A DNA stretch of 64,000 nt from Pyropia yezoensis (Eukaryota > Rhodophyta > Bangiophyceae > Bangiales > Bangiaceae). The notes under the pieces are model-generated. The model saw nothing but the letters and a program-made list of their open reading frames with translations. It ran no database searches and was not told the origin of the DNA. The stretch spans positions 4,152,882 to 4,216,881 of the forward strand of contig CM020618.1 in NCBI GenBank assembly GCA_009829735.1, given 5' to 3'. Both the position numbers and the translations under genes were made by a program. Each line of letters starts with the position of its first letter. Position 1 is the stretch's first letter. This document shows, piece after piece, positions 14,319 through 44,708 of this stretch.

Positions 14319-14319
14319 A

Positions 14320-14355
<36 letters not shown>

Positions 14356-17300
14356 CGGCGGCTCCCGTCCCCGCCGCCCCGACTGCCGGCGCCGCTCCCG
14401 CAGCCGGCGCCGCTACCCCCGTCGCCACGCCGGCTACCGCCGCCGTCCCTGCCGCTGCGTCTACGGCAGCAGCAGCAGAACTAGCAGCAGCAGCTGCATC
14501 GACCGAGGCGTCGCTCCTCCCTCTCCCCACTGCCGCGGCGATGGTGGAGCGCCTCAAGGCGGCAGGCACCCTCAACGCCCTCCGCTCGGCGGCGATGGGC
14601 CGCCTCACCGCAGCCGCGTCGACGGTGACGGCCATCCAGGCCGCGGCTGCGGCGGCGGCGACGATGGCGCTGCCCGCCGCCATGGGCCCACCGCCAGGAA
14701 CCCCGGGCGGGATGGGAGCGCGGCGACCCAACGCGGGGCGGGTGCTCGTGGCCCTCACGCCAAAGGTGCGGGCAGAGGTGGCGGCGCTGGTGCGGGGGGT
14801 GGTAGGGGGGGTCGTCCTGGCTGGAGTGGGGGGGAAGGGTGATGTTGGCGGTGGCGGTGGCGGTGGGGGTGACGGTGACGGTGGTGGCGACGGCGGTGAC
14901 GGCGGCGACGGCGAAGACATGCAAGCCCGCCTCCGCCAGGCGGTAGCGACCGAGCTGGACAAGCTACTGGCGCAACAGGAGGCGGTGGTGCAGGAGCGCC
15001 GTGCGGCAGTGGCGGCACAGGAGGCGGCGGCGCGGGAGGCGTCTGTGCGTGAGGCGGCGGCGCGTGAGGCGGCTGCTCGGGAGGTGGCTGCACGGGAGGC
15101 GGCGGCAGGGGAGGCGGCGGCACGTGAGGCGGCGTCGCAGGAGGCAGCGACGCGCGAGGCGGCGGTGCGGGAGGCTGCTGCGCGCGAGGCGACGGACTGC
15201 ACGGCGGCGGCGGGCGACGAGGCGGCGCCCGCCGCGGCTGGCCTGGTGGCGCCGGCGCGCGACGCGGCTGGCCCAGACGGCCCAGCGCGGCCGATGCAGC
15301 CACCGCGCCAGCCGTTGGCTGCCGCGCGGGCGGCCACCTCCCCCGCCGCCGCCGCTGCCGCCCCCGCCGCCGCTGCCGCCCCCGATGACGTGGAACCCCT
15401 GCACCCGTCTCCCCCGCTCAGCGCGTCCGCCGCCTCTGTTGCGCGGAGCGTCGCGGCCGCCGAGGCGGCGGTCGCCGCGGCGGCGGCGGCGGCGGCTGCC
15501 ACGGACGCTGCCGCGTCGGCGGCGGGAGCGCGCCGTGCCGCTGCGCGGCGGGCGGCGGCGGCCGTAGCGACCCGCCGCTCCCGCCGCCGTAGCCACGCGG
15601 CGGTGGCGGCGGCGCCGTCGCCGACGGCCGATGCGGCGACGTTGCGGGGGGGCGGGGCGCCCCGGCCGCGCGGGCGGGGGAGCCGGCGGTCGGCGGTAGC
15701 GCCCGCGGTTGCCGCCGCGTCGCCCCCGCCGGCGGAACGGGTGCACCTGCTAGCCAGCGCGGGGCTGCTGTCCTCGTCGGCCTCGTCGGGCGATGAGGGC
15801 GACAGCGACGGCGGCAGCGGTGGCGGCGGCAGCGGCAGTGGCAGCGGCAGCGACGCTGTCGCCGTGGCGACAGCGACAGCGGCGGCCGCCGCGGCGCTGC
15901 CCCGGCAGCCGCCTGGCCGCTCTCCCCCGCCACGCGGCGCGGCAGGTGGCGAGCGGCCGAGGCGGGCGGTGGCGGTGGCCGCCCGCGCGCGCATCCACGA
16001 GTGGGTTGCCGCTGGCACGGACGACAGGGAGGGCCCGCGCGCTGCCAGTTCCGCTTCAGCTGAGGAGGAGGAGATCGTCACGCCGCCGCCGCCGCCGCCA
16101 CCGTCGTCCCCGCCGCCGCCGCCGCCGCCGCCGCCGCCTCTGGGTCAGTCGCCGGTCGCCCGCAAGCGCCGCTCCGCCGTCGGCAGCGCCAGCGAGTTCC
16201 ACGGCCGCAGCGCGGGGTCGGCGGCCAAGCGCCGCCGCCGCGCCGACGGCGCCGTTGCCGCCGCCGCGGCGGGCAGGGGCAGCATCGGCGGCCCGGCCGA
16301 CGGCACGTCGACTGACGGCGGCGGCGTGACCGACGGCAGTGACGTGGGCGGGGGTGGAGCTGCGGCGGCAGCAGGGGCGCTCCCGCCCGCCCGCCGCCGG
16401 CCGCGGTCTGCGGCGGCGGACGATGGTGGCGCCGGCGCCGAAGGGGGGGAGGGGTTGGCCGCCCCGGCCGCCGCGTCGTCCGAGGCGCCGCGCAAGCGCC
16501 CGCGGCGGGCGTCGGCGGCGGTGGCGGTGGCCGCGGCCGCGGCGGCGGTGGCTTTGGAATCGTCATCGTCCGAGGGGGAGGCCCCCGCGGGTGGGTCGGA
16601 CGGCGGCAGCGACGGCGGCCGCGATGGTGACCGCGGCGACCGCAAGGCGGCAGCGGCGCCCGCGGCGGCAGCTGCGTCGCGCACCGGCGCACCAGCGTCT
16701 GCGACCGCATTTGCGACGCCCAAGGGCGGGGCCGCACGCGGCGGGGTGGTGGGGGCGTCCTCCTCCCGCCAGCGGGTGCTCCCCGCGGCGGTCGCCCCCC
16801 CCCCGCCGCCATCCGCGGCGGAGCTCGACGAGGCCACCTCGCGGGCCATCCTGCACGTGTGGTTCTCCCTCTGCTCGCTCATGGACGCGTCTGTCGCGGA
16901 GCCCTTCCTCGACCCCGTCGACCCCGACGTGCCCGACTACTACGCGGTCGTCCGGCGGCCAATGTGCCTGCACCACGTGCGCGGGCGGCTGCGGCCGCTG
17001 GCGGTCGCCGCCGCCATTGCGACGGACGCCGCCGCGGCGGTGCCGGCGTCCCCCCCCGCCGACGAGGTGGCGGCGGCGGCCGGCCCCGGCGGCGGCCGCC
17101 CCCCCTACACCCGCCCCGCCGACGCGGTGGCCGACGTGCGGCAGGTGTGGTGGAACTGTGAGCTCTTCAACGAGGCGGGCAGCGTCTTTGCGGTGATGGC
17201 CAAAGCGGCGGCGGGGCTGTGGGAGTCGTGCCTTGGGGAGGCTGACTGGGGGGGGGGGGGTGCCGCCGAAGCCGCCCGCGTGGCGGGGGGGAAGGCCGCC

Positions 17301-17614
17301 CGCACCAAAACCACCGCCGGCCGCCGGGTGTGGCAGGGCGGCGGCTGGCGGCCGGGGCGTGCGCGGGGGCGCCGCACGCGGGGGGGGCACGGGGGGGGGC
17401 GGACCCCCCGTGGGGGGGGGGGGGGGGGGGGGGGGGCAGCGCCGCCGCCGCCTCTACCGTCGCCGCCTCCAGCACCGTCGGCGGCAGTGCCGCCGACGGG
17501 GAGGGCGGCCGCGAGTCGCCGCCGCCCCCGTCCGCCCCAATGGTGGCGGTCGCCGCCGACGGTGGCGCCGCCGCCGCGTCCGCGCCGGCTGCGCCCGCCT
17601 CGGGGGCTGGTGGT

Positions 17615-17645
<31 letters not shown>

Positions 17646-19126
17646 GCCAGGACGATGCCGCCGCTGGGGTTGCCCCCGCCCCGGCGGGCGGTGGCCGCGG
17701 CGGCGGTGGCGGCCGCACCGGCAGCGGCGCGGACCGTGGCAGCCGTGGCGGCGCGGGCGCCTCTGCGCCACCGGCGAGGCGGGCGACTGCCCTACGCCGC
17801 GCCGCCGTGGCCGTCGTGCTACCCCCTCTGCCGGTGCCCGGACGAGTGACCAACAGACGGGATGGTGGCGGCGGCGCCGCCGACGCCACCTGCGGCGGCG
17901 GCGGCGGCCGCGGCGGTGACGCCGGCGACGGGGACGGGGACGGGGGCGGCGGCTATGGCGGCGACGGCAGTGGCGGCGGTGGGGACGACGGCGGCAGCGG
18001 CGACGGTGCCGCTGCCGCCGCGGCGGCGGCGGCCCCCCCCGTGGCGCCCCCCCCACCCACAACTACCCGTCGCACCCCGCGGCGGGCGGCGGCCGCCAGC
18101 GCCGCTGCCGGGGCGGCGCCCGCGGCGGCAGGGAGCGGGGGTGGGGGTGAAGGTGCGGTCGTCACTGGCGGCCTCAGCCGCGGCCGCCGCCGCCGCCTCG
18201 TCGCTGCCGATACAGACACGGACGTCGACTGGGGGTCTGGCGCCGAGGCGGGCGGCGCCGCCGCCGCCGCCGCCGCCGCCGCACCCGACCGCACCGCCGC
18301 CGCCGCCGCCACCGCCGCCGCGGCGCCCGCCGGGGCCGTGGGCGCCGCCGCCCCCGCCACGGCGGCCGCGCCGCGCGCCGCCGCCGCCGCACCCACCGCG
18401 GCGGCGGCGGCGGTGCGGTTGGGTGCGGCGGCGGTGGCCGGCGCGGCGCCCGCCGCACCTCCCCCCCCCCCCCACGCCGCCGCCGCTGCCGGCGGTGCCG
18501 GCGGCGGCGACGGCGGCAGCAGCGATGGCAGCAGCGCGCGGCCGTCGCCCACGGGCGGCGCGGGGGTGGTGGCCGCCGCGGCGGCGGCGGTGGCGGCCGC
18601 TGCCGCCGCAACCGCCGCCGCCGACGCGGCCGCCGCGCCGCCAGCCGCACCGCCCCCGCCGCCGCCACGGGCGGCCACGCTCCCCCGGCCGCGGCGCTCC
18701 CCCCTCCCCCCGCCCCCACCACCACCACCACCACCACCACCACCACCACCACCACCACCACCACCACCACTGCCAGCGGCGCCACCGCCACTGCCGGCGG
18801 TGGCGGCGGCGGCAGCGGTGGCAGCTGCGGCGGCGGCGGCGGCGGGGCTACCCCCCCCCCCCCTCGGCGGTGCGCACCTCCGGCTCCCACCGCCCCCCCC
18901 CTTCCCACCCCCGCCCCCGCCCCTGCCGCCCCCCCCACCCCTGCCCCGGCCGCCGCCCCCACCCCCGCCAACGCCGGCGGCGACATCCCGGCGGGCAACG
19001 CCGCGGCGGTCGGCCGCGGCGGCGGCGGCGGCAGAGGCAGCGGCGGCAGCGGCGGCAGCGGCGGCAGCGACGGCGGCGGCGGCCGGGACGGGCGCACCGG
19101 CTCCCGACGGGCGGGGCCCGGTCTGA
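14319..19126 (+). CDS. bromodomain protein with long disordered Ala/Gly-rich tail
   Basis: A nuclear acetyl-lysine reader by family. The first frame opens at ATG 14319 and would stop at 17849 (1176 residues). Residues about 233-290 are a charged tandem repeat of the type EAAARE, probably a long helix. Residues about 835-975 are a bromodomain: RAILHVWFSLCSLMD (helix Z), FLDPVDPDVPDYYAVVRRPM (ZA loop, with PDYY and RRPM), then DVRQVWWNCELFNEAGS, in which the Asn of LFN is the acetyl-lysine-binding position, and AKAAAGLWE. A Pro-rich or Ala-rich insert of about 45 residues separates helices A and B. After a 25-G run (17412-17436) coding quality moves to another frame that stays open to 19126 (ADGEGGRESPPPP, then VAADTDTDVDWGSG). 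I therefore extend the gene there, assuming one missing base. The 3' half is low complexity and less certain. The downstream neighbour is convergent. Confidence 0.72.
17412..17436. repeat. G25 homopolymer and probable frame break
   Basis: 25 consecutive G residues inside the bromodomain gene. The better coding frame changes across it in a way equivalent to one missing base. Confidence 0.8.
18718..18770. repeat. (ACC)n microsatellite
   Basis: About 17 ACC triplets in the 3' part of the bromodomain gene. It reads as poly-Pro in the favoured frame. Confidence 0.9.
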
Positions 19127-19619
19127 CCGCCGGCCCCCCCGCCGACCAGCCTCCCGACCGTCTGCGCGGTGGCACGCCGCGCCGGGCGGCGGGGGAGCCC
19201 CGCCATGCCTGGCACGGCCGCCCGTGACAGGGACTGGTTGGGTTTGGTTGGAGGATCGCGCGGGGGGGGGGGCGGGGGGGGGGGTGGGGGGAGGGCGTGC
19301 CGGCCAACGAGCCCTCCCTGTGTGGTGCCGCTTGCGCGGCAGTGCCACGGATGACCTGTTCTTGTTTCTGGCCGCTTGTGGCGTACCTTTTTTTGTTTGT
19401 GGCAAATTGGATGGCACGCCGCCGCGCTCGGGCGCGGCCGGCCGGCGGCGGCGCGTGGCGACCGCCCGTCCCCCTCCCCCCGTGGGCAGGCGGGCATCCC
19501 GGCAGCGGCGGCAGCGGGGATGGTCGCCTCTCGCCACCCCCTCTTCCGTAAAGGGTGGACCCACCCCCCCCCCTCCCCTCCCCCTCCTCCCCTCCTCAGC
19601 ACTATCCAGTGCACTACTA
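19127..19619. other. convergent spacer
   Basis: 493 bp between the 3' ends of the bromodomain gene and the secreted Cys-containing gene. It holds G runs (19261-19290) and a T-rich patch near 19350-19400. No gene seen. Confidence 0.4.
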
Positions 19620-20585: not shown

Positions 20586-20656
20586 GGTGGTGGTGGTGGA
20601 GGTGGTGGTGGTGGTGGTGGTGGTGGTGGTGGTGGTGGTGGTGGTGGTGGTGGTGG
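20583..20656. repeat. (GGT)n microsatellite at a start codon
   Basis: Roughly 24 GGT/GTG triplets overlapping the ATG of the minus-strand secreted-protein gene and extending into its 5' leader, where it reads (ACC)n. Confidence 0.9.
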
Positions 20657-22524: not shown

Positions 22525-23640
22525 TCATGGTGCCTTGCGTCGGCGCGTCGGCCGCGCCGGCCGCCGGCCGCCGTCACCGTCGTCGTCACCGCCGCCGCCG
22601 CCGTCGCCGTTGCCGCCGCCGTCGGCTGCCGCCGCAGCGGCGGCCGGTGACGCACTCCGCAGGCGGCGGCGGCTGCCGCGGCCCGCCCCCGTCCCGCGCC
22701 CCGCCGCCGCCGCCGCCGGCCGTGGCGCCCGCGCGGCTGCCGCCGGCGACGACGCCGGTGGGGGTGCGACGGGTGGCGGCGCCGCCGCCACCGCCGGCGA
22801 CGCACTCCGCAGCCGCCGGCCACTGCCGGCCGCTGCGCCGGCCGCCCCGCCCGCCGACGGCGACGGCGGCGGCGCAGACCCCACCGCCGGCGACGCGCTC
22901 CGCAGTCGGCGGCCGCCGCCGCCTTCCACGGCGGTTGCCGCCGCCACTGGCGATGGCGTCGGTGCGGGCGACGCCCCCCCCGCCGCTGTCGACCCCCGCG
23001 GCCGCCGTGGCGGCCTCCCCGCCGCCGCCGCAGTCGCCGCCGCCGCCGCGGGCGCGGGCGCCGCCGCGCTGCGGGCGGCCGCCGCCACTTGCGACGGCGA
23101 CGAGCGGGACGGGCGGCGGGGGCCCCCTACCGCGCCCCCCCCCCGTTTGCGGCCGCCCTCCGCCGCCACCCCGCCCCCCGCCCCCCCCACCGACGGTGGG
23201 CGGCCGCGGCGGCGGCCAGCCGGCGGCGGTGGCGCGTCTGCGGCAAGCGCAAACGACAGCGACCGCGCCAGCGGGGGCGTCTCCCCATCGTCGCCCGGCG
23301 TGCTGCTGCTGCCGCCCGACGAGCCCGCCGCCGCCACAGCGGCGGCGGCGGCCGCGGCGGCGGCGGCGGCTGCCGAGCCTGCCGCGCCGCCCCCCGTCCC
23401 CGTCCCCGTCCCCGTCCCCGTCCCCGTCCCCGTCCCCGTCCCCGTCCCCGTCCCTGGCCCCCCAGTCAAAGACTGCCGGCGGCCGCTCGCCGACGCGCCG
23501 GCAGCGCCGCCCGACGCGTCGGCGGCGGCGGCGGCAACGTCTCCCACCCTGCCCCCTCCGCCAGCCGACGCGGCCAGGGACCACCGCCGGTGGCGGCCGC
23601 GGCTCGCCTCGCGCTCCTGCGCGGGCGTGTAGACGGGCAG

Positions 23641-23673
<33 letters not shown>

Positions 23674-26600
23674 CAGGCTCGCCCGCCGCCCCGACGCGCT
23701 CGGCCGCACGCGGGCGGTGGAGACGGGCGTCTTGCCGCCGCCGCCGCCCGGGGTCCTCGGCGGCGCCGTCGCCGGCGCAATGCCGCCGCCGGGGGTGGCG
23801 GCGCCTGCCCCCGCCCCCTCGCCCCCCCCCGCTGCTGCCGCCCCTGCCCCTGCCCCCGCCCCAGCCGCCGCCCCAGCTGCCGCCGCCGCCGCCGCCGCTG
23901 TGTCGACGCGGCTGGCGCCGCCCGCGCGGGCGCGCCGCGCTGCCGCGTCAGCGGCGGCCCAGTCGTGCTCCAGCTCTGCCGCCAGCGTCGCGTCGGCGCC
24001 GCCGACCAGCTCTCCCACCGTCGCCCGGTAGGGGCGGAGGAGGGTGGCGAGGCAGGCGCCCAGGTCGCCGCCCAGCGGCGACCGCGCGCGGCGGAGGAGG
24101 CGGCGCAGCTCGAGCAGCAGCGGCAGGGTGTGGGTGTGGAGCTCCACGCGCGCCACCTTGGCCAGCAGCGCCGCCTTGGTGCCCCGCCCGCCCAGGCCGC
24201 CGGCGCCCCCCGCGTCGCCGTCGGCACCGCCGCCGGCACCGCCCGCGGCGGCGGCACCACCCGCGGCCGCCGCCGCGGCGCCCGCCGCGGTGGTGGGCGC
24301 TTCGTCCTCGTCGGCGCCGCCCGCCCCCCGGGCGGCGCCCCCGAAGACAGGTTTTGCGTCGTGACGAAGCTCGGGGACGGCAAGGAGGCCCAGCGCGTCG
24401 GCGAGAACGCCCTCCATACCCGGCGCGTCAAGCGACAGCACCCCCTCTGCGAGGGGCGTCAGCACGTCGGTGCGGAGGCGCAGCGGCAGGGTGATGCGCT
24501 GCTCGTCGGGGATGAGCCGGAGGAGAAAGGTGTAAACCGCCGCGCGCGCGGCGGGCGTCGCCGCCCGCGCCGCAACCGCCGCCGTCTCTTGCGACGCGAC
24601 CGTAAACGTGTTGAGGCCCGCGCGGCGGGCGCCGGTCAGGCCGGGCGCCGACGCCTGGCTGCCCTGGCTGCCCCCTGTCGCCGAGCCGCTGCCGCCGCCG
24701 TCTGGCGGGGAAAAGAAGGCGCCCTCCCCCCCGGCGCGCCCGCCCTCCCCCCCGGCCGGCGCGTCCTCCCCCGCCGCCGAGGCGGCGTTGAAAAAGAAGA
24801 GGGCCTCGACAAAGTGGAGGGTAAATATGGCCGGGCCCTTTGGTGCCAGCACCGACTCGAGCGCGTACGCCGCCATAGCCGCCACCCCCGGCACGGGGTC
24901 GAGGAGCGCCAGGAGCAGCCGAAACAGCAGCGGCCCGCCCCGCCATTTGAGGTAGTCCTCTGACAGCAGCGCCGCTAGCGACGCGAGCACCGTCGCCCGC
25001 ACCGCGGGGGACGGGTCCGTGAGGCAGCGGCCCAGGCGGAGCGCGTGTGGCTCGACCACCGCCGTCGCCCGGCGGCACACGTCGCACAGCGCCAGGATGG
25101 CGTTGATGCGGGCGGGCACGTCGCCGCCGCCGCCGCCACCGTCGGCGTCGGCGTCGAGCTCCCGCACCAGCGCGGGCACCACCGACCGGGTGAGGGTGTC
25201 GGCAAAGACGCCGCCGACGCGGCCGACGCCACCAACGCCGTCTGCTGTTGGTGCCACAACCGGCGGCGTGAGCGCTGCGGGGGACCCGCCGGCCGCGTCC
25301 CCGCCACCGCCGCCGCCACTGCCTCGCAACGGCGGCGCCTTGCCCGCATTGTCGGCCAGGCAAAAGCGACCAAGGCACACGGCCGCCGCCGCGCGGACGC
25401 GCCCCCCCCCGCCGCCCGGGCCGAGTGCCGCAAACGCAAGCGTCACCATCCTCGTTGACGGCGGGCGTACGGCGCCCGCCCACGCCACCGCCACCGACCC
25501 GGCGGTGGCGAGCGCCGCCACGGCGGTGGCCGCATCCGCCGCCGCGGCGGCGGTCGCCGCAGCAGCCACGTTCCCGTCCCCGTCGACGGCTGCGCGCGGC
25601 GACAGGGCGGCGGAGCGGGCGGCGAGCGCCGCCTCGGCCGCCGCGGCGAGGCGCTCCCCCGCGGGGGGGTCGAGCGGCGCGAGCGCCACGGCGGTCGGGT
25701 GGATGGCCGGCAGCGGGACGGTGAGGGCGGCGAGGCCCGCCGCCCAGCCCGCCACCAGCCGCGCGCGGGAGGCGGGGGGGAGCGCCCCCGCCAGTGCGCC
25801 CGCCACCGTCACGGCGGCGGGGGTGGGCGCCGCCAGCGCCGCGTCCACCAGGCGGGGGGCGTCGAGGGCGCGCCGCAGCGGCGGCGCTGCCGACGACGAG
25901 ACAATCTCGCCAAGGAGGTGCCACGCGCCCGCCGCCGCTGCAGCCACCGTCGCCGTCGTGCCGGTGGCCATAAGATGGGGTGGGGGGGGGGTGCAGGCGC
26001 CGCCCGCGTCGCCAGCCGAGAGCCGCTCCGCGTCCTCGCCCGCCGCCGCTGCCGCCGCCGCCCCAGCCAGCGCAATGGCCTGCAGCGCCCGCACAACGGG
26101 CGGCGACACCTCCCCCCGCACCGCCAGCGCGGCGGCGGCGCGCCCCCCATACTCCCCGCCCCCGCCTCCGCCCAGGCGGCTGAGGAGGTCCGCCGCCGCG
26201 GCGTGGCGGCTCGCCACCCGCTTGAGCACCGCGTCCGCAAACGCCGCGAGCGCCGCGTCCGCGACGGCCGACTCGGGGTCTTGGCAGCGGGGGAGGACGC
26301 CCTCCACCCACGCCCGGGAGGCGGCCACCAGAGCGGGGGACGGTCGGAAGACGGCTCCGCCGTCACCGCCGCCGCCGTCGCCGCCACCGGCGTCAGCATC
26401 GGTAAAGTCGTCTGCGTCGGCATCCGACAGGCGCAGGTAGAGGGACGTGAGCGCCGCCACCGCCGCCCGCCGAACCGACGGCGCCTCGTCGTCGGCTCGG
26501 CGACGGAGGAGGCGGAGGAGGCCACCCGCCGCAGCCGCGGCGGCCGCGGCGCCCCCCCCCCCCCCGCGGCGGCCACGTCTCCGAGCAGCGCGTCCGCAAG

Positions 26601-28976
26601 GCCAACCGCGGCCTTGCGCACCCCCCCACGCTCATCCGCGGCGCGCTCCGCCAAGAGGTGGCGGGTGCCCCCGCCGAGCGCCCGCGCCGCGTCTGTGGCC
26701 AGCGCAGCGACGGCGGGATTGGCCGCCGCAGCAGCGGCAGCGGCGGCGGCGACGGCGCCACCGCCAAACGACGACCGCCGCCGGGCCGACGCGGACGACG
26801 GCAGCGGCGGCGGCGGCGGCGGCAGCAGCAGCCGCCCCAGCGCCCCCCGCTCGGCGGTCGAGAGCGCCGGCATGGCGGCAACGACGGCGGCCAGTCCCCG
26901 CGCGCGCACGGCGGGGAGTTTGTCGGACGCGCGCCCCAGCGCGGCGACTGCCACCGCCCAGGGGGTTCCGTCGGGGGGGGGCGGGTGCGCGACCGCCGCG
27001 AGACGCGGGAGGAGGTCCAGGCAAAACACCCGCACCGTCGCGCGAGGGTGCCGCGGCAGCCGCAGGGCAAAGGCGGTAAAGGCGGTGGCAAACGCAATGG
27101 TCGGGGGCGTGGCGGCCGGCCCAGCGGGCGCGCCTTGCCGGTCGGGGCCGTCGCCCCCATCACTGTCGCCGCCCGGCTCGGCAGCCGCCGCCGCGGCCGC
27201 CGCGGGTGACACGGGTGGCAGCAACGCAAGGATGCGGAGGACGAGGTCCACCAGCGCCGCCCGCGGCTCGGCTCGGTCCGACGCGCGCACACACAGGTGC
27301 TGGAGGAGGGTGAGGGTGGCACGGCCGGGCACCGCCGCGGCAGCCGCGACGGCGACCGCCGACGCGGGCGACGCCGCGGCCGCGCCGGGGCGGCCGCGCT
27401 TCTTCTTGCGCTTGCGAGCCGCCGCGGGCGTAGGCGCGCCGTCGCTGCCACTGCCCCCCGAGGAGGTGTCCATTGGCGACGCGCTGCCGCCGTCCGAGCC
27501 CGACCGCCGCCCGTTTGCGTCGGCGCTGCCGCCGCCGCCGCCGCTGGAAGAGCCGCCGCTGGTGGCGCTCCCGCCCGAGCCACCGCCGCTGCTGCCCCGC
27601 CCCCCACCCTCCCCCTCCTCCTCCTCCCCATCCCCCTCTCGGTCGCTGCCCCCGTCGTCGTCGTCTGACATGCCGCTTACGCTGCCGTCGCCGTCACCCG
27701 CAGCCGACAACGACTGCCGCCTCCCCCCACCCCCCCCCCCCCCCGCGCGTGCCCCTCTCCCAGCTCGTGGCACAGCACGCGGCGCACCACCTCCACCCCG
27801 GCCTCCCGCGCCGCCCGCCCGCGAGCGCCCGTCTCGGCGGCGGCCGACAGCAGCGCCGGCAACAGCGCGCGGCACAGCGCGCCCGCCACTGCCGCCGGCG
27901 CGCCGTGGCGGGCGGGTGGGTCGGCGCTGCCGCTGCCGCTGCCGCTGCCAGCGGCCGCGCGGCTGCGGCCCGGGCCGCCGACGACGGCCGCGTCGCCCGT
28001 CAGGGCGGCAACCACCGCCAGCGCCGCGGCGGCCGCCTCGTCGGCCGCCCGGTTGCCACCGCGACGCGGGGCGGCGGCGCCAGCGCCGGCGGCGGCGGCA
28101 CCGGCAGCCGTCGCAGTGGCGGTGGCGGCCGCGTCGGCGGCGGTCATCCACCCCACCGCCGTGTCCGCAATGGACGCCAGGACGTCGGCGGTGCGGCCAA
28201 TACCGCGGGCACGGAGGAGCGCCACCAGCGCGCCGCGGCAGCGACGGAGCGCCGCTGCCGACGCGGGCGCACCGCCACCGCCACCGCCGCCCCCACCCCC
28301 ACCGCCGCCGTCGGCGTCCGCGTCGCTGCCGTCGGCGTCCGCGTCGGCGGCGCCCCCATCGTCACTGGCGTCCTCACCGTCGGGCGGGGCGGCTCCCCGC
28401 CGGCCACGGCCGCGGGCGCGGGCGCGACCCCCCCGGGCCGCCCGCCCACCCCGCCCGCCGCGGCCACGGCCCCGCCCACCACGGGCGGAGCCATCCCCCC
28501 CAGACCCCCCCCCCCTCCCCCGCCAGGGGTGCCGCCCCCGTCGCCCCCCCCCCCCCCCCCCTCCCCACTCCCTGCAGTGGCCGCCAGGGCGGCGTGGAGG
28601 ACAAGCACGTCCACCCCTCCCCCCCCCCCAGGTATCCAAAGTACGCCCCAGCCGCGGCAGCGCGGAGCTCCCCGCTGCTGCTGCTGCCGCCGCCGCCGCC
28701 GCTGCCCCCCCCACCCGGTCCGCTGGTGAGCGCAGCCGACAGGGCGGAGACAAGGTCGGCGGGGGTGATGCCCGCCGCGGCCAGCGCCGGGCGGGACAGC
28801 GGATGGGCCGGTCGCCCGTCGGCGGCGCCTCCACCCGCAGAGGAGGCACGACGGCTGCGGCGTGGCGGCGCGGCGACGGGGGGGGGGGTGGCGAGCACGG
28901 CGAGCGCGTCGAGGAGGTCGGCGGTCGGCTCTGGCGGCAGCGCAATGACCGCCGCGGCGGCCTCGGCCACGTCCAT
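22525..28976 (-). CDS. NCAPD3: condensin II complex subunit D3, broken into five frames
   Basis: HEAT-repeat subunit of condensin II, the nuclear complex that compacts mitotic chromosomes. The ATG at 28976 starts MDVAEAAAAVIALPPEPTAD. The diagnostic block, near 25130-24780, is INAILALCDVCRRATAVVEP, then CLTDPSPAVRATVLASLAAL, LSEDYLKWRGGPLLFRLLLA and FTLHFVEALFFFN, which follows the D3 pattern (VNAL..LCDLC, DP.P.VR, L.ED..KWKG.LFFRFL, FF.HF.E..FHFN). Upstream HEAT blocks include GVRKAAVGLADALLGDV and DDEAPSVRRAAVAALTSLYL. The C-terminal third is basic, Ala/Ser/Gly-rich and probably disordered. The frame changes at 28619-28629 (C11), within 28505-28561 (C11 and C18), at 27730-27744 (C15) and at 26552-26565 (C14), each equal to one missing base. 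The longest intact piece ends at the stop at 22525. A pseudogene is possible, but the conserved blocks are intact. Confidence 0.85.
23392..23453. repeat. (CCCCGT)n hexanucleotide repeat in coding sequence
   Basis: About ten hexamers, encoding alternating Gly-Thr on the minus strand in the disordered C-terminal part of the condensin D3 gene. The unit length keeps the frame. Confidence 0.9.
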
Positions 28977-30291
28977 GGCGGTGGTGACCCGGTGGCGGGG
29001 GGAGGGAATGAGAGGGAGGGAGTAGATGGGGGGAGGGGGGAGCAGGGGGGGAGGGGGAAGGGGGACGGAGGCGAAGGCCCGGCGGCGGCCGGGGCCGCGA
29101 CGGCCTGCCGACTCCGACGGCCAGAGCCCGTTGCTCACCAGCCGATGACCGCCGCCACGCCCGGGCGGGAGGAGGAAGGGGACTCTACCGAACGCGCGCG
29201 CGGTCGGTCTGGTAGTGGCAGCGCTTGGGCGGGAAGGGCTGGGCTGCCGCCAGGATCGAAGCTCGGCGAGTGTCAGAGTGGCCCCCTCTCTGTGACCTCT
29301 TGGAGCCTGCAACGGGTCAATGGCCTGCTCCTTGTGAAAGTACGTCCTCTCGACAATGATTGTTCATTGTGTATTTTGCCCAACAAAGTTCAAGTAATTA
29401 TACTGTGCAACGCACTTCCAAGAATATTTCTGAGCTTGTGCACAATACGCTCGAAAAGTACCCATTTTTTTCGCTGACATGACGGGATTCTTGGCAGCGC
29501 TCTTCCTCAACTGATGCGCTGGAGCGCCCCGCGCGGCGCGCGGCCTCCGCCAGACGAGCCCGCGCGGGGTACCTACATACATTGCACAGTACTGTATCGC
29601 AGACCCTCCACGAGAACTCGTTGGGGCGCATCGAGGGCCCATCGTCGTCCCACCGTAACTGCGCCTGCGGTGAGAAACACCCAATCTGTGACAATGGGGG
29701 TGAAAGCCCAACACCCCCCCCCCCCCGCCGCCACCACAGGGCGGTTTAGTGGCCGCCGTCGCCGGGGAGCGATCTGGCGGCGTCCCCGCCCCTGCTGGCG
29801 GCGGCCCGCGCTTTTGCAAACGACTTAGGAGCCGGGGGTGGGGGCGTGGGGGTGGCGGGGGTTGCCCCTTTTTTTGGCCGCCGGTGATTGTTCCAGCGGG
29901 GATGGTTGCTATGCGCTGCCCCCCTATGGATGCTGTCCTTACGGAACGCGCCGTGGCAGAGTGGGGCGTGAAAGGGTGGGGGGGGGGGGTGCGGGGACAC
30001 GCCTCGCTCCCCTGCCCCATTGCCGGCATTGGACAGGGGGTGGGGGCGGGGGGGGGTGCTGTCCCAGTGGAGCAGAGGCGCTGCTCCGCCCGAGGGGACG
30101 TTTCCGGGCGTCGTGGGGAGCTGTGGAGGGGGCGACGTGACCGCCCAGGCCGTGGCCACCGCGGCAGCATGCGCAACACCGTTTTGACGCACCTCCGTCG
30201 TCGCGGGAGCGCGCCTGGGACGGAGGCACTGCGCGCGGTGCCCTGCGCTCGGCCGGTGCCACTCCCGTCCAGCCTGCGCACGGCGCAGGCC
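28977..30291. promoter_or_regulatory. divergent intergenic region
   Basis: 1.3 kb between two divergent starts (condensin D3 on - and the membrane protein on +), so it should hold both promoters. A low-GC patch spans about 29330-29510, with an A/T-rich run near 29390-29405. The palindrome ACAGTACTGT is at 29586-29595. A C run at 29716-29728 and G runs near 29978 follow. No gene was recognised. Promoter function is inferred from gene arrangement only. Confidence 0.45.
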
Positions 30292-31565
30292 ATGACCCCC
30301 CAGCCCTTCCCGTGTGTGCTCCCCACCAGTGAGCGCCTGGCCGCGGCGGGGGGGGTGGTGTGGGCGGTGCTCCTCCTCCTAGCTGGCGCGTCCAGCGGAG
30401 CCGCCGCGCCGGCGGCGGCGCCCGCCCCCGTGGCCTCTCCCACCCCTGCGGACGACTCCCTCGGCCGCTTCCACTTCCTCCGCGGCCTCCAGTGCGACAC
30501 GGCCGCGCCGGGGACCGTCGATGGGGTGCGGGGCTTTCGGGTTGGCGCCGACGCCCGCGGCGGCGGCGGCGGCGGCACCCCCACCACCATCCCCGTTGGC
30601 GACGGCGTGTGCTGGTCCCCCCTCACCGACGCTGCCGCCCTTTCGACGGCGCGGCCGATGCGGGGGGCCAACGGCACCACGACGGTCGGCATCCGCCCGA
30701 CGGCGGCGGCGGCCACCATCGAGGTGGTGGGGGAGCTGGTCAGCGCCGCGCCGGTGGGGTCGTTTGCGCACCACGAGACGTACCGGCAGCTGCCCATGGG
30801 CGGCGGCGGCGGCGGCTACGACGGCGGCCAGTTGCTGCGGGAGGACTCGCTGCTGAGGCTGCTGACCCTCCAGCGCAACTCCCTGTCAGGGGCGGTCCAC
30901 CGGGTGGTGGGCGCGTACGACGTGGTGACCATCTCCCGCATCACCGCGGGGTACTGCCGGACGGGCGGGTGCGCCGACGCGAGTGCGGTCAACGTGCTCG
31001 GCGGTGCCCGCCGCGGCGCAGGGAGCGCCCCCTCCCCCGCCGCGGTGGAGCTGCTGGCCTACACCCCCCCCGGCGGGTGGGGGGCGGACAACAGGACGTG
31101 GCGGCACGTGGGCATGGACGATGAGGACCTGCTGGCGCTGGGACGGGCCACGCTCGCCGACCCGTTCTGGCTGGCCGTCCCCGCCGCCGCCGCCGCCGTG
31201 CGGTCTTGGCGGCTGGCGGCGGCCTTTTCCCTTACGGGCTGGTCCCGCCGGGACGCGGCGGACTCGTCGTCGCAGGCCGCCCTGCCGCTGGGTGCCCCCT
31301 GGGGCGCCGCCGGGGGGGACCCCCGGGTGGACCTTGGGAGGCCGTCCCCCGCGTCTTCGGCGGGGGCCGAGCAGTGGCTCCAGGCCGTCACCCTCGTCCT
31401 CTGCGCCGCCCCGCGGTCGTCGTTTGTTGTTTCGTCTGGCAGCACCCGCCTGTGTGGAACGCATCAGGGGGGCGTATCGCGGGCGCGTGCGGCCGCGGGG
31501 CGTCGGCTGAGCGGATGTACTATTCGTCGTGGATGTTTCAAGCCGCTGCTCGAGGAGGGGACGGC

Positions 31566-31599
<34 letters not shown>

Positions 31600-32644
31600 G
31601 TGGTGGTGGCTGCGGCGGCGGGAGCGAGGCGCGCCCCGTCGGAGACCTCGTGTTGCCGCCATGCAACTTTTCCGCCACCCGCGACGTGGTGGACCCCACC
31701 GTGCCCGTCACCCGCCCCGCCTTGCTGGCCGGCCGCGGGGGCAGGGGGATAACCCGGCGGCGGGGGCCGAGGTGGCCCTCGGCCGCTCCATCACCGCGTG
31801 CGCCCACGAGGTGGAGCCCCCTCCCCCAGAGGAGGTAGAGGGGGGCGTGCCACCCCCAGCCGTTGGGGGCGGTGGCTCGGCGGCCGCCGGCGCCGGCGCC
31901 ACCACCCCAGTTCGCCACCTGGCGGCCCTAAAGTACGCGCCCGTGGTGACCGAGGCGGGCCGCCTCTCCCACCAGTACGACCGCGCGCGGTGGGGGGTGG
32001 AGCCCCCCGGCGAGCCCGCCACCAACGCAGACATCACCCTTGCCATCATTGTGAGCCTGCCCGAGGCCATTGCGCTGGTCGCCCTCGTGCTGACCAACCC
32101 CCGGTGGGAAAAGCGGGACGGACTGGCCTTCCTCCTCATCTGGGCCGCCGGCGGCGTCAGCACCGCCGGCATCATCACGCTGGCGGCGGAAGAGGGGGGC
32201 GGGCAGCGGTGGCGAGCAGCGGCGGAGCGGGTGGAGCTGTCTGTGGGGCTGCACAAGGGGAAGAAGAGCGACTTTTCGCGCAACCTGGAGCGCATGCCCC
32301 TGTACAAGGTGGTGACCCTCTTCCTAGCCGCCCGCCTCGGCTACCGGGACCGCTACCTCCGGGCGCTGGCCATTGGGGTTGGCTGCACCTACATGGGGCT
32401 GTCCGCCGTGGCCGGCGCCGCGGCCGCCCGTCAAACGCGGGCGGGCAACCGGCGGCGGGGGGGGGAGCTGGACGCGCGGAGCGGCGGCAGCGACGTTGAC
32501 TGGCTGGCCCCCCCCCCCACCGCGGGGGCGGCCGGCGCCAGGGGGTATCCCGGCCTGGCCCCCAGCGTGGCGTACCGGCGGTCCGTTAGGTCGGCGGCGG
32601 ACGCCGCCGACCTCGGTGACCCCGTGGCGGCTTGGCACCTATGA
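30292..32644 (+). CDS. hypothetical signal-peptide plus multi-span membrane protein (frame-broken)
   Basis: No family recognised. The ATG at 30292 opens a frame with a signal-type N-terminus (GVVWAVLLLLAGASSGAAAP). A luminal or extracellular domain of about 360 residues follows, with Cys at CDTAAPG, VCWSP and YCRTGGCAD. Coding quality then moves to a second frame at about 31400-31460 (HPPVWNASGG, ERMYYSSWMFQ, LVLPPCNFSATRDVV) and to a third at about 31735-31750. The third frame runs to the stop at 32644. It encodes at least three helices: ADITLAIIVSLPEAIALVAL, GLAFLLIWAAGGVSTAGIIT and the segment around YLRALAIGVGCTYMGLSAVA. It also has a charged loop LYKVVTLF preceded by KKSDFSRNLERMP. Both frame changes equal one missing base. 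The first is not at a long homopolymer, so a short intron cannot be excluded. The gene lies head-to-tail with another membrane protein. Confidence 0.6.
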
Positions 32645-36974: not shown

Positions 36975-37653
36975 CGTAGCAGCAGCCACCACCGTCTCCA
37001 CCACCACCAGCACAAAACGAGCAAAGGGGGTATGGATGGGGGGGGGGGGGAAGGGATGAGCGGGGAGGAGAGGGGGACGTCAAAGGCGGTTGTTGGCGCC
37101 CAGCGTGGGGGCAGAGCACCAAAACAGACGTGACGGTGCACACAGCAGGGACGTGCTGCAACCAGCTGGCAATAGCGTGACCACTGTCAGGGGACAGGGG
37201 CGAGCGGGTGCCGCACGACGACCGGAAGTGGGAGGGAAGACTGTCCTCGCCAGCCGCCTCCAACCCGGGCTGGCGGGGGTGGAGAACCAAAACCCCCGCG
37301 ACGCACGGTCGTCGACCGCGGCCGCTCCCGCCGCCCGCGCGCCTAGCCGCGGCGCTGGTGGGGGGGGGTATCCAGCGCCAATGCTTGCAGCACCCCCTCA
37401 AGCCACCCCCCCCTCCCCGTGTGCCGCCCGGCACCCCCCACCAGCCACCCCCCTCACCGTGCACACGGCCGCCCCCACCCCCCCCCCCCCCCCCCCCCGT
37501 GCACAGTACCAATGCGCCAAGAGCGGTGACCGCGTCCCCCCCCCCCCCCCACCCCCCCCCACCCCTCCCCACCCACCGCCGACGCTACCGGACACTGGGG
37601 CGGCCCCGGGTCCCACCACGGCCGTGCGGCGCTACCGGGTCCTACCACGGCTG

Positions 37654-37685
<32 letters not shown>

Positions 37686-39427: not shown

Positions 39428-39726
39428 TGTGGCGCCTTACGATAGAATCCTCATTTTCTTTGGCTCTCAACATTTTTGAGTTAGACCCATCATTGGACTC
39501 GGGAGACGGAGATCTCTCCAGTAGTGCATGCCTCGTGTCTGGAATGCAAGGCCCCAAAGAGTTTCGTGGGGAATAAAAAGTGTGAGATTCTTGGGCGACT
39601 TTCGGAATCTCGCTCTGGTGGCGCGTGGGGACCGATTTCTCGGGATGACCTTGGATCACCAAGAATTACTTTATCTCAGCTTGACCCTGCTCAAAGACTA
39701 TGAGTGTTCTATCGCAAGGCGCCACA
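39428..39726. mobile_element. 299-bp MITE-like element
   Basis: The left end TGTGGCGCCTTACGATAGAA (from 39428) is matched in inverted orientation by the right end at 39692-39726 (TGTGGCGCCTTGCGATAGAA when reverse complemented). Similarity continues inward for about 15 more bp (CTCATttTCTTTG versus CTCATagTCTTTG). The interior is AT-richer than the surroundings and non-coding. No obvious target duplication. Confidence 0.75.
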
Positions 39727-40767
39727 TTTATTGATTGCATTGTGGAATTAACCAGTACAATGACACGTACTCTCACAACAATGTTTTTGACCCGCCACCC
39801 ACTTGAATCAATCCCTTCCCCGAGAACTAACTACCGTAACAAACAAACGTCGTCGTGCTCTTTTCTTTTCTCTACGTACACACTGCATCGAAAGCGGCAG
39901 GAGCAAGGGAGACGTGGCCAGGAAAACAATGAAACAGAAACATGAGTTGGCGCATCCTCAGCAGGGCCTATCGACTGGCGAGGCCGCCGGCCGTGGACGG
40001 CGTCGTCTGCACGGCCCGACACGTTCAGGATCTTGCCAGAGAGTGACGAAACAAGGGGCGCGACGACAGGCGGGTCATCTGGCGTGTCGTCTTCACGCCG
40101 TCAACGTCGGACACCCCTTGCGGGAGAAAGGGGTATCGAATGGCGGGCACGCCGCTGCACTGGAGAGTCACCCGTGTACCGATGGCAGATAACGCAGCCG
40201 CCTTGCCGCAGCTTTCCCTTTTCACTTGGTCGCGGAGCCTTCCCGCGGCGACGGTGCCGGCGGCCACCCGCTGTCTGTAGACGCTTCGGGTTGGGTAACT
40301 GACCTCGCCCTGTGGCGATGGGCGTTTGGGGTCTGTGAGCGGGTCGCCTGGAGTCGACTGCCGCCAACGGCGGCTTCGCCACCAACGTCCCGGCCTCGCC
40401 ACCAACGTCCGCCGCCAAGGGCCCCCCCGTGGCCTCCCCAGCACCCCTCCAACCCCCCCCCCCCCAGCTACCGCCGTCGACCACCGCCGCGGCGGCCGCG
40501 CGTCCGTGACGGCGGCGGCGAGCGGGGCGGCCGCCTCGGTTGGCCGCGCCCCGGTGACCTGCCGCCACCCCCACCGCTGCGACCGCCGCACCGCGGCTGC
40601 CGGACGCAACGGCGACAAGCATGAGCGGCGGCGGCAGCGACCCATTCCCCGTCCCTTTACCCGTCCTCCCCCCCCCCCCTGCCATCGCCACGGGGTGGAC
40701 ATCCGCCGTCGGCCCCTGCCGCGGGCGTCGCCGCTGGGTCGGCCGACGCCACTTCGGCGCCGCCGCC
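39727..40767. other. spacer downstream of the METTL5 gene
   Basis: 39727-39960 is lower in GC with no gene. 40140-40760 is GC-rich and open on all frames with repetitive translations and no recognisable domain. Confidence 0.35.
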
Positions 40768-42192
40768 TCAGCAGCGGCCAGCACGCGCCGGCCGCCCCTG
40801 CGTCCGTGGCGGCGGCGTCGGCAGCCAGCCACCCGACGACGGCGCCGACCGCGAGCACAGCAGCAGCGCCGCTAGCGTCGCCGCGCCCGCCCCCGAAGCT
40901 GCCGCTTCGACGCTGCCCCTAAGGGCAGTGTGCAGCAGCCCCCCCGACGCGATGCACCGCCGACAGGGTGCCCCCACTCGATGTGCCCCGCCGAGCTCAC
41001 CGGCGGCGCCCTCCCCTCCCCCCCCCACCCCTCCCCCCCCGGCCGCGGCCCCGCTCACGCCCCCCCCCCCCCCCCCCCGGGGCCGTCCCCGGTTGCGGTC
41101 ATGGGCCTTGCCACCCTTCCCCCCCCCCGCGCGCCGCTCATCCTCCTCCCCCTCCCCCTCCCCCTCCCCCGCAGGGGGCATACACCACGCCACCCGCCGG
41201 CCACTGCCCACCCCCGCCACGTCGAGGCGCCACAGGTCCACCGCCACCTCTCCCACCTCTGCTCGGTGAAACGCGTACGCCCGCGGCAGGGGAAACCGCA
41301 GCCGCGCGACGACGGCCGGCACCGCGCCCGCCGCGGCGGCGGCGCCGCCCACGTACGCGCGCGTGGACGTCTTGTGCATCGACCAGACCGCACGGGACGC
41401 CACGTGGGCGGCGGCGAGGAGGAACGCCACGTCCGCGCCGGCGACGCGAGTGCCAAAGGGGGGGTTCATCACCACCGTGTCGATGGTGCGGCCACGCGCC
41501 CAGGGGGGGGGGGCCAGCGGATGTCGCCGGAGCGCTGCAGACGTCGCAGGCGCAGCGACGGCCGCGGCGGAGGCGGCAGCGGCGGCGGTAGTAGCAGCGG
41601 TGGCAGCGGCAGCAGCGGCCGCGGCGGTGGCGGCGGCGGTGGTGGTAGCGGCGGTGGCGGCAGTGGCGGCGGTGGCGGCAGTGGCAGCGGCGGCAGCGTC
41701 GCCGCCTTGGTCGCTGTTACTCCCGTCGACAGCAGCGGCAGCGGCGGCGGCTTCCGCGTCCACGGCGGCAGCAGCAGCAGCGGCGGCAGCAGCAGCAGCG
41801 TCCACCTTGGCACGGGCGGCCGCCGCCGCCGCCGCATCAGCGGCAGCCATCGCCTCGGGCGACAGCGGCGGCGGCAGCACGTCGGCGACCACGCAGTCGA
41901 GCGTCACGCCCGCAGCGGCAGCGGCCGCCGTCGCCACCCCCAGCGCCCCCCCGTCAATGTCCACGGCAAGGACGGTCGCGGCACCAGCGAGGCCCGCCGC
42001 CACGGCCAGCGCGCCCGTTCCAGCGCCCAGGTCCGCCACCGCCCTCCCCACAATGTCGTCGTGGGCGGTGACGGCGGTGTGGATGAGGCGAGCGGCAAGG
42101 CCGGGCGGCGTCACGTACTGCTCCCGGGCAATGGTAGGGGCCGGGAAGGGACGGATGGCGCCGAGAGCGGCTTCCAGCTCCCACAGCCGCAT
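40768..42192 (-). CDS. METTL5: METTL5-type 18S rRNA adenine N6-methyltransferase
   Basis: In animals METTL5 with TRMT112 makes m6A at one site in 18S rRNA. Read from the ATG at 42192, the family pattern appears in order: LWELEAALGAIRPFPAPTIA, REQYVTPPGLAARLIHTA, the SAM-binding motif AVADLGAGTGALAVAAGLAG, VLAVDIDGGALGVA with the acidic ribose-binding residue, DCVVADVL, then TIDTVVMNPPFGTRVAGADV with the catalytic NPPF, AVWSMHKTSTRAYV, and RLRFPLPRAYAFHRAEVGEV with VDLWRL. Human METTL5 is about 209 residues. This frame is longer because a roughly 120-residue Ala/Thr-rich insert separates VVADVL from TIDTVV, and because the 3' part reads into Gly-rich sequence. If one base is missing from the C run at 41121-41130, the protein ends at a TGA at 41101-41099 soon after the conserved end, so 40768-41098 may not be coding. 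A TRMT112 partner was not seen in the window. Confidence 0.87.
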   Translation of the reverse strand: MRLWELEAALGAIRPFPAPTIAREQYVTPPGLAARLIHTAVTAHDDIVGRAVADLGAGTGALAVAAGLAGAATVLAVDIDGGALGVATAAAAAAGVTLDCVVADVLPPPLSPEAMAAADAAAAAAARAKVDAAAAAAAAAAAAVDAEAAAAAAAVDGSNSDQGGDAAAAATAATAATAATAATTTAAATAAAAAAAATAATTAAAAASAAAVAAPATSAALRRHPLAPPPWARGRTIDTVVMNPPFGTRVAGADVAFLLAAAHVASRAVWSMHKTSTRAYVGGAAAAAGAVPAVVARLRFPLPRAYAFHRAEVGEVAVDLWRLDVAGVGSGRRVAWCMPPAGEGEGEGEEDERRAGGGKGGKAHDRNRGRPRGGGGGGVSGAAAGGGGVGGGGEGAAGELGGAHRVGAPCRRCIASGGLLHTALRGSVEAAASGAGAATLAALLLCSRSAPSSGGWLPTPPPRTQGRPARAGRC

Positions 42193-43092
42193 GGTGACAC
42201 AGGAAGGGCGCAGCGGCCGACCGTCCGGCGGCGACCAAGACGGAGGTGGGGAACGCCAGTGCCGCTGCTCTGGGGGTGTGATGGTCACGACGTCCGTGGG
42301 CAAGCCCGCCGTGGTCGCTCTGATGGAGTTACAGTCGCCGTCCACGATCGGAAACTTTAGGCATTACGTAGTTGAGACTCTGTCCAATTGGGAGGTCCGA
42401 AGCGGAGGACGAGACATGTTTGGGCGACAGACGCCCCCACGTCCCTCGCCGCGTCCACGGCCGCGAGTACTTACGTCGCCGCTACCTCCACGGCCGCGAG
42501 TCCGTCGCCGCCGCGTCGGCCACGCCTCAAACCAGTGTTTGGCGAGCCCCCCCGCTGCCGCCTGCGGTCGCCATTGGTGTGGCGCTTAGGCAAGGGAGTA
42601 TGTATCCATGCCGGTGCTAACGGGGTCCCCATCATGGCCACTGCCGCCACACGCACAGGGAGTTGCGTTGCGAGGGAGGGTGGGGGGAGGGGAACGCCCC
42701 AGCGCCAGCGGCAGCCCCCAGCGGCTGGCCAATCTGAGATGGGGCCCTACCGCGGTGCCAGCGGCGGCGTCGACTGCTCTTCGTCGTTCTCTTTCTGAGG
42801 GCTTTTGATGAGTTGTCTCCACTGCTGAACCCCCCCCCCGCCACCTCGGTGGTGAGGAAACGTCCACCAGTTGGCTGTGGTGGCGCCCCTCCCCCGCCCC
42901 GACAGTCGTTGCGTCCATGGATACAGAGCCACAGCAACCCACGCAGCGCACGCACAAACACACACAAACACACATGCACACACACACTCAAAAACAGCAA
43001 CGGAGGGAAAAGCACGCCACCAAAAGGAAGACAAAAAAAAGGACAAGAAAACAAAGAGATGGCCCGACCCCCAACGACCGGAATCGCGGGGG
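42193..43092. other. spacer between METTL5 and bZIP genes (5' and 3' flanks)
   Basis: Should include the METTL5 promoter (42193 onward) and the bZIP 3' region. A CA-rich imperfect repeat is at 42953-42990. The bZIP frame is literally open to 42747, but its translation here (for example repeated VCVCA) looks non-coding. Confidence 0.45.
42953..42990. repeat. imperfect (CA)n microsatellite
   Basis: CACAAACACACACAAACACA-type sequence downstream of the bZIP coding end, probably in its 3' untranslated region. Confidence 0.8.
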
Positions 43093-44071
43093 TCACGCCG
43101 GCAGCCCCTCTGCGCTCCCCCCGCCGCCCCCCCCCGCCCCCCCCCCCCCCGGGCGGCCACGCGGAGCGCCCAAAACGGGCTCCCCCGCAGCGCCTCGAGG
43201 CGGGCGGTGGCGGCGGCGAGCACCGCCGCCTCCGCCTCCAGCTCCGCCGCCCGCACCGCCAGCGCCGCGTTGGCCGCCCCCAGCCGGGTCAGCCGCCGCT
43301 TGGCCGCCGCCCGGTTGCGCGTCGCGGCCTCGCGGGTGCGCATCACCCGCCGGGAGTGTTTGCCCAGCGTCGTCACGTCGACGGCGGCGGTGCGACGGCT
43401 CAGGGGGGGAGGGGCGGTAGCAGTGGCGGCGGCGGCGGCGGCGGTGGCAGTGGCGGCGGCGGTGGCGGTGGCGGTCGTTGTGGCGGCGGTGGTGGTGGTG
43501 ATGGTTGCTGGGGTGGTGGCGGCCGTTGGGGGGGAAGGGGAGGGGGGCAGCGGGGACCCAAGAGCCCCAGCCGTGGCGGGGGGGGGGGGGTGCGGCGTCC
43601 CTGGCGGGAGCGCCGGTGGGGGGGCGCCCGGGGGCACAGCACCGCCCGCCGCTCCCCGACCGACGGCACCCGCCGCCGTGGCCGCGGCCGCCGGCGGCGC
43701 GTCGTTGGCCGCCACCGCCGGCGCGGGGAGGGGCCGCCCGACGCCCGACGGCGACGGCGGGGTAGCCTCCCCCGCCTCGAGCGATGCCAGCAGCGCCGCC
43801 GCGTAGGCGGCCGCGTCGGCCGCGTCGTCATCCTCAGCGGCAGCGTCGGGGGCGGCGGCGGGGGACGCGGGGGGCACCCCCACCGCGGCGGGGAATGCCC
43901 CCGCACCGCCACCCACACCACCAGCGGGCGGGGTGGCAGCGGTAGCGGCAGCGACGGCGGCAGCAGCAGCGGCCGCAGCGGCGGCGGCACCCGCCGTCCC
44001 GCCGGTCGCGGGGGCGGGCCTTGACCCCGCAGCGGCCGCCGCGTCGACGAAAGCGGGCGGGGTCCCCCCCG

Positions 44072-44109
<38 letters not shown>

Positions 44110-44708
44110 GCAGCGGCCAGCCGGCCCTGCCGGCGGATGGCGGCGCGGAGCTTGCGCGCCGCCGCCGCGCCCGCCGCCCCCCCCGGCGGCAGCACGTGCG
44201 CGGGCGCCGCCCGGTGGGGCGGCCGCGCCACCGCCGGCAGCGGGGGCAGGTCCGCCCCCCCCGCCCCCGGCGGGCCGCTCACAAACGGGGGGGTGGTGGC
44301 CACCGTCGGCGGGGCCGACGCGGGCGCCGGCCGTCGGTAGGGGGCGACAGACGCGGCGGGGGCGGCGACTGACGCGGCGGCGGCGGCGGCGGCGGGAGCG
44401 CCCCAGCCGGCTAGCGGCGTGGCCGCCTGGGGGGGGAGCGCTGACAATGGCGCCGGCGGCACCGCCGCCGCCCAGCCGCGGCCGCCACCGCTGCTGCTGC
44501 CGCCGCTAATGTCGCTGCAGCCGCTGACGCCCCCGGGGGTGGCAGACGCCGAGAGGAGGCCCAGGTGGTAGGGCCCGAGGTCATCGTCCTCGGCGTCGTC
44601 GTCGTCGTCCCCGTCTGGGGAGGCGGGCGGCGGGATGTCGAGCGGGAAGAAGAAGGGGGACAAAAAGTCCACGTCCATCGTGGGGGGGGCCGCCACGTCC
44701 ACGTCCAT
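43093..44708 (-). CDS. bZIP transcription factor with atypical basic region
   Basis: The ATG at 44708 starts MDVDVAAPPTMDVDFLSPFF, followed by an acidic patch (DGDDDDDAEDDD, residues about 34-45) of activation-domain type and long Ala/Gly/Pro-rich linkers. The bZIP is at the C-terminus: basic region RRVMRTREAATRNRAAAKRR, then Leu at exact heptad spacing (LGAANAAL, AVRAAEL, EAEAAVL, AAATARL: five Leu). Aligned by the zipper, the nearly invariant Asn of the N-x7-R signature is Thr (TREAATRNR, against NTEAARRSR in yeast Gcn4). The final Arg is kept. A 36-C run (44072-44107) encodes poly-Gly in frame. After the zipper the literal frame runs to 42747 through repeat sequence. One missing base in the C runs at 43120-43150 would instead give the ending SAEGLPA and a TGA at 43095-43093, which I take as the end. 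A T-run on the coding strand lies 30 nt upstream of the ATG. Confidence 0.8.
44072..44107. repeat. C36 homopolymer inside the bZIP gene
   Basis: 36 consecutive C residues. Encodes Gly on the minus strand. The same bZIP-like frame is found on both sides. Confidence 0.9.

Follow-up and report, generated by a model that had tools for sequence, protein, structure and literature searches.

We analysed a window of 64,000 nucleotides (nt) from Pyropia yezoensis (NCBI GenBank assembly GCA_009829735.1, contig CM020618.1, positions 4,152,882 to 4,216,881 of the forward strand), in which three large genes change reading frame. They appear to code for a bromodomain protein, for subunit D3 of condensin-2 and for a membrane-protein-like product, whose gene we call the 30292 gene after its first position. 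As judged from the sequence and its relatives, these frame breaks are very probably residual single-base insertions or deletions (indels) of the draft assembly. Most of them would be G/C homopolymers counted too short, and the genes affected have a G+C content of about 70-84%. Most likely nothing is wrong with the genes, which would be ordinary ones for a D3 subunit of condensin-2, for a bromodomain protein and for a membrane protein that other Pyropia share. We favour assembly error because no short-read base polishing is named in the main text on the assembly, because the relatives of the 30292 gene, which are intact, have one base more at each of its breaks, because breaks are found at C9 and G11 runs outside the window, and because frame changes are enriched at long runs. 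An earlier note on this DNA had proposed homopolymer under-calling from the uniform direction of the breaks. Assembly error stands as the likeliest explanation, whereas the directional argument is not general and two of its nine items, the 3' ends of a bZIP-like and a METTL5-like gene, fall.

The best-verified breaks are the two in the 30292 gene (Table 1). A protein search with this gene found five proteins; P0014 is an intact Pyropia vietnamensis protein of 743 amino acids, P0013 is an intact relative of 765 amino acids, and P0015, public protein I4F81_011296, is a P. yezoensis paralogue on another contig. Both intact relatives run past both breaks, where the window falls short by a whole base. 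The identity to P0013 and P0014 is 65 and 66% before the breaks, 54 and 48% between them, and 68 and 66% after them. At the first break, residue 383 of P0013 ends at 31461 and residue 397 starts at 31500, such that 13 residues (39 nt) face 38 nt, and in the alignment with P0014 two residues (6 nt) stand opposite 5 nt. At the second break, an Ile and an Asn codon that are adjacent in both relatives share one base at 31751. No stop codon was found inside the three aligned segments, and for this gene the additional stops expected of a pseudogene are thus not seen. The one-base shortfalls claimed for this gene are therefore verified against relatives, whereas their link to G/C runs is loose and involves runs of G5 to G6 only.

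The public gene model of this locus, I4F81_000344 (protein P0012), bridges the two breaks with an intron. P0012 follows the first frame for 394 residues and picks up again at 31745, and removing 31474-31744 reproduces its first 420 residues. We take the removed DNA to be coding because the stretch that includes it aligns to the relatives' proteins (to P0013 over 84 columns, E=2.9e-20). Judged by this alignment, the intron is false: the model skips a segment that is conserved and coding, and both shortfalls are concealed by it. After about 32401, P0012 diverges once more, and the residues that follow are encoded from 33222 onwards, past 32641, where the match of the relatives stops. The model apparently runs past the end of its own gene into the neighbouring gene.

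The remaining breaks were located with a codon-phase model of seven states (three forward, three reverse and one non-coding), between which phase jumps are allowed. The model was retrained on 22 loci outside the window only and then applied to the window. It assigns a break to a class that is known only modulo 3, 'missing' meaning one base missing or two extra. This model places missing-class breaks near 17345, 18648, 26551, 27714, 28393, 28617, 31456 and 31743, and extra-class breaks at 40796 and 45007. Our confidence in it is increased because it finds the breaks at 31456 and 31743 having seen neither the window nor the relatives. All seven breaks that the earlier note had assigned to one missing base are reproduced in that class (modulo 3). 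Two of the model positions lie off the runs that it had listed, at 17345 instead of the run at 17412-17436 and at 28393 instead of the runs within 28505-28561. The list also proved incomplete: within the interval it covered, the model has two more breaks, at 18648 (missing) and at 40796 (extra), and a further one at 45007 (extra) lies just outside.

The count of breaks depends in part on the parse. When trained on the window together with the loci, the model gives the four condensin breaks and bromodomain-gene breaks at 17345 and 18636, all of the missing class, as well as the extra-class break at 40796; it passes through the 30292 gene with a non-coding gap, the net shift across which is of the extra class. 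Because a pair of missing-class breaks is equivalent to a single extra-class break, the parse decides how many breaks are counted at 28394-28629 and, if the relatives are ignored, at 31456-31743. The two-break parse beats the one-break parse by 14.0 nats in the condensin gene and by 13.6 nats in the 30292 gene, where an extra break costs about 11.5 nats.

For the condensin gene, 11 relatives were found; three bear the name condensin-2 complex subunit D3, one is called Ncapd3 and none carries a Bangiales label. Together with the Cnd1 domain, these relatives identify the gene as condensin-2 subunit D3. We aligned the window from 29000 to 25111 to a profile of the 11 relatives with a frameshift-aware method. 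The score was 68.5 with one missing-class shift and 49.9 without a shift; one reversed and three shuffled control profiles scored 12.3-15.8. The shift was placed at 26496, while the firm blocks end at 26598 and begin again at 26478, with the C14 run between them. When gap costs were stiff, an initial alignment stopped short of the N-terminus. Among the four condensin breaks that had been proposed, the one at 26552-26565 is thus backed by homology and the one at 27730 weakly so, whereas for those at 28394-28561 and 28619 the evidence is codon composition. An alternative parse of 28394-28561 is one extra-class break near 28514. The proposed association with long G/C runs is strong for the condensin breaks (C14, C15, C11/C18 and C11).

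Both breaks of the bromodomain gene fall past the bromodomain, so their support is codon composition. A protein search with the region that spans the break gave no relative among the 7974 candidates scored. The single break that had been described for this gene is recovered by composition, and the model adds a second missing-class break at 18648.

Table 1. Genes, frame breaks and homopolymer runs in the window (positions are those of the window).
Feature	Position	Strand	Evidence
Membrane-protein-like gene (30292 gene)	30292..32641	+	P0013 and P0014 by tblastn, colinear through three window frames
First one-base shortfall, 30292 gene	31462..31499	+	Relatives and codon model (31456); contains G6 run 31467-31472
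Second one-base shortfall, 30292 gene	31731..31753	+	Relatives; codon model 31743; located at the G5 runs (31737-31741, 31744-31748) or immediately 3' of them
GT-AG intron of I4F81_000344, 271 nt, judged false	31474..31744	+	76% G+C; first bases GTATCG
Condensin-2 subunit D3 gene	22531..28975	-	Pfam Cnd1, E=4.6e-16; four breaks by codon model
C14 run (G14 on the coding strand), best-supported condensin break	26552..26565	-	Homology on both sides in different frames; codon model 26551
C15 run, missing-class condensin break	27730..27744	-	Codon model 27714; weak colinear profile match 27913-27770 in other frame
Condensin break interval with C11 (28505-28515) and C18 (28544-28561)	28394..28561	-	Codon model alone, 28393
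C11 run, condensin break near gene start	28619..28629	-	Codon model 28617, composition alone
Bromodomain gene	14319..19204	+	Pfam Bromodomain, E=6.5e-11; missing-class frame changes near 17345 and 18648
G25 run, proposed bromodomain-gene break site	17412..17436	+	250-base flanks in different frames; model break 17345
METTL5-like gene	41224..42192	-	PDB 6h2u METTL5, E=3.7e-33; two stretches, the best of which aligns query 234-323 with chain 117-207
C9 and C14 runs after bZIP-like helix	43127..43150	-	Run list; evidence neither for nor against a break

The way in which the genome was assembled is consistent with such errors. The P. yezoensis assembly was built from PacBio RSII reads with HGAP3, PBJelly2 and Quiver polishing, and Illumina mate pairs were used for scaffolding (PMC7423979). 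In the main text of that report, Quiver is the sole polishing named and no short-read base correction is mentioned (PMC7423979). The G+C content of the genome is 65% overall and 71% in coding regions (PMC7423979). In steps of 2 kb, the window reaches 84% G+C, above the genome-wide value, and its longest G/C runs have 36 bases. As reported for long-read-only assemblies of bacterial genomes, homopolymer length errors persist when short-read polishing is missing (PMC8812927). A literature search found no assembly of this species (as N. yezoensis) from HiFi reads, although one may still exist.

To compare runs with controls, we counted frame changes in flank tests. In a first version, a non-coding state was allowed to compete; in the second, the flanks had 150 or 250 bases and the margin was 4 or 8. 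With 150-base flanks and a margin of 4, the frame changed at 4 of 16 runs of at least 10 bases (all missing class), compared to 8 of 452 controls (7 missing; Fisher p=4e-4, with rows that are not independent and a sample that includes the window). A margin of 8 gave 2/6 runs and 2/282 controls. With 250-base flanks, the values were 12/25 runs (7 missing, 5 extra) compared to 29/560 controls at margin 4, and 4/15 runs (3 missing, 1 extra) compared to 13/423 controls at margin 8. Among runs of 5-7 bases, 10 of 225 changed frame (4 missing, 6 extra; 150-base flanks, margin 4). We thus observed that the enrichment at runs of at least 10 bases holds in all four settings of the second version, whereas the direction does not.

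Outside the window, we surveyed the genome (107,475,971 bases in 11 contigs) with nine Pfam families, leaving PF00297 uncounted. The matches listed are the scored candidates (for Pkinase, for instance, the best 122 of 300). Partial matches that had no partner and six matches with internal stops (four Pkinase, one HSP70 and one SNF2) were left out of the inspection. Among the matches listed (304 matches, 216,432 nt), there are 50 colinear pairs on the same strand, 39 of which keep the frame and 11 of which change it. Ten of these 11 were inspected; the other is an SNF2 pair on contig C1 with a gap of 1855. From the ends of homology, assessed by eye, six of the inspected pairs are introns (loci L024, L025, L026, L029, L030 and L032), which leave gaps of 275-341 nt and share an unusually strict donor, GTRCGT (five GTACGT, one GTGCGT). 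Three are frame breaks (L023, L027 and L028), one of the missing and two of the extra class. A kinesin gene has 8 nt for 3 residues at a C9 run (missing class), and a kinesin gene at a G11 run has a break that is extra class or equals two missing bases; the third break is in an HSP70-like gene (L023). Hence, two of the three verified breaks in conserved domains outside the window lie in G/C runs. In a further, divergent HSP70-like gene of 53% G+C, a missing-class frame change without a homopolymer (L031:370-620) may be a short intron or a frame break. Among the loci, L003 contains 8717 N bases and L016 contains 500, which may be scaffold gaps.

Conserved domains are thus mostly intact among the matches listed, and both classes of break occur. 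The codon model likewise gives two missing-class and three extra-class breaks outside the window, compared to one and two that were checked by homology. The earlier expectation that the direction would be uniform does therefore not extend to the genome. As a break can be classed only modulo 3 and breaks of either class are seen outside the window, we also reject uniform direction as a proof of error.

Two neighbouring genes had been counted as further evidence for missing bases. In the METTL5-like gene, homology stays in one frame up to residue 207 of the 215 residues of the METTL5 chain, which supports the identity of the gene. This homology stops near 41224 and does not extend to the C10 run (41119-41128), and the 3' end of this gene can thus not serve as evidence. 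The predicted protein carries an in-frame insertion rich in Ala and Thr, of about 100 residues (41480-41860), ahead of its NPPF motif. The bZIP-like motif is a resemblance by eye to the bZIP pattern. Pfam gave no bZIP match in 43151-43400 at E<=1, and the 3' end of this gene was dropped as evidence. A C36 run (44072-44107) lies within the open frame of the bZIP-like gene. The two extra-class shifts of the codon model are located beyond the METTL5-like gene (40796) and upstream of the bZIP-like gene (45007).

Several observations weigh against homopolymer under-calling. Both best-verified breaks sit at short runs, as the nearest runs to the shortfalls of the 30292 gene are G6 and G5 and long runs are absent there. 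Runs of 14-25 bases should also be miscounted by two or more, and a uniform class is then not predicted. The break in the HSP70-like gene (L023:940-1090) is one extra base outside any homopolymer. In the stricter first version of the flank test, at margin 6, frame changes of any class were found at 0 of 4 runs of at least 10 bases and at 0 of 170 controls. In favour of assembly error, the differences in bacterial artificial chromosomes of Capsella assembled from RSII reads with HGAP3 and Quiver were indels, at 2.0e-5 and 5.7e-5 per base, with no single-nucleotide differences (PMC5873921). Against it, that study describes no specific tie to homopolymers for the indels that set replicate assemblies apart (PMC5873921). 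Like those assemblies, the one analysed here would contain small indels that are able to break frames and disturb annotation; unlike them, most of its breaks are found in or close to G/C runs, and their density is higher (PMC5873921). The three genes together cover about 13.7 kb and have eight missing-class breaks, a density 10-30 times the Capsella rates and also far above the three verified breaks in 216 kb of conserved domains outside the window. With a density this high, errors of the assembly must be concentrated in very G+C-rich sequence. If the tracts were under-counted, reads would show them longer than assembled, and the breaks known from composition would share their cause with the verified ones.

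The breaks could instead be real frameshift mutations, with the genes being recent pseudogenes or null alleles that arose in the sequenced strain by homopolymer slippage. Slippage is a real mutation process that may favour loss too, the extra base in the HSP70-like gene may be a real lesion, and similarity to the relatives is lower in the middle of the 30292 gene than in the segments on either side. However, condensin D3 is broadly conserved, and in this gene alone four such lesions would be needed. The 30292 gene retains 65-68% identity outside its breaks, with its aligned segments free of stops, and in each segment the codon model still detects coding periodicity. The main text of the assembly report, moreover, names no short-read base polishing. 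We therefore consider real mutations unlikely.

Introns that bridge the frames are less likely still. Apart from the intron of the public model, they are suggested by 33 GT-AG pairs of fitting length listed near 27730, some with a GTAAGC donor at 27680, which leaves a small chance of an intron for this one condensin break. In contrast, the segment 31474-31744 aligns to a relative's protein and begins with GTATCG, and none of the seven listed breaks was found to have a GTRCGT site close by on the coding strand. The closest ones are at 15045 in the bromodomain gene, at 29340 and 32700 for the 30292 gene (both outside it), and, for the condensin gene, at 22805, 22655 and 29415, at its 3' end and outside it. 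At 26552, the ends of the blocks leave room for 43 nt and the firmer blocks for about 120 nt, compared to gaps of 275-341 nt at the inspected introns. On the basis of the donor motif and these introns, we reject introns as a general answer.

Programmed ribosomal or transcriptional slippage that restores the frames at G/C runs is hardly credible: in general, slippage at long runs of G or C is plausible, but the four breaks of the condensin gene occur at runs of differing length, those of the 30292 gene have no long run, its relatives are deposited as single proteins (and known from proteins, not DNA), and we noticed no shared motif, although no systematic motif search was made. That the tract lengths are correct and the alga expresses its very G+C-rich genes by transcriptional or translational slippage at these runs is, accordingly, a most improbable alternative to residual assembly indels.

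Assembly errors of this kind are ordinary, yet worth correcting. For users of the reference, they are a caution that assembly indels can break very G+C-rich genes and that a public gene model can conceal them. In the P. yezoensis assembly, read support is thus needed before such a gene is said to be lost, to be a pseudogene or to contain introns.

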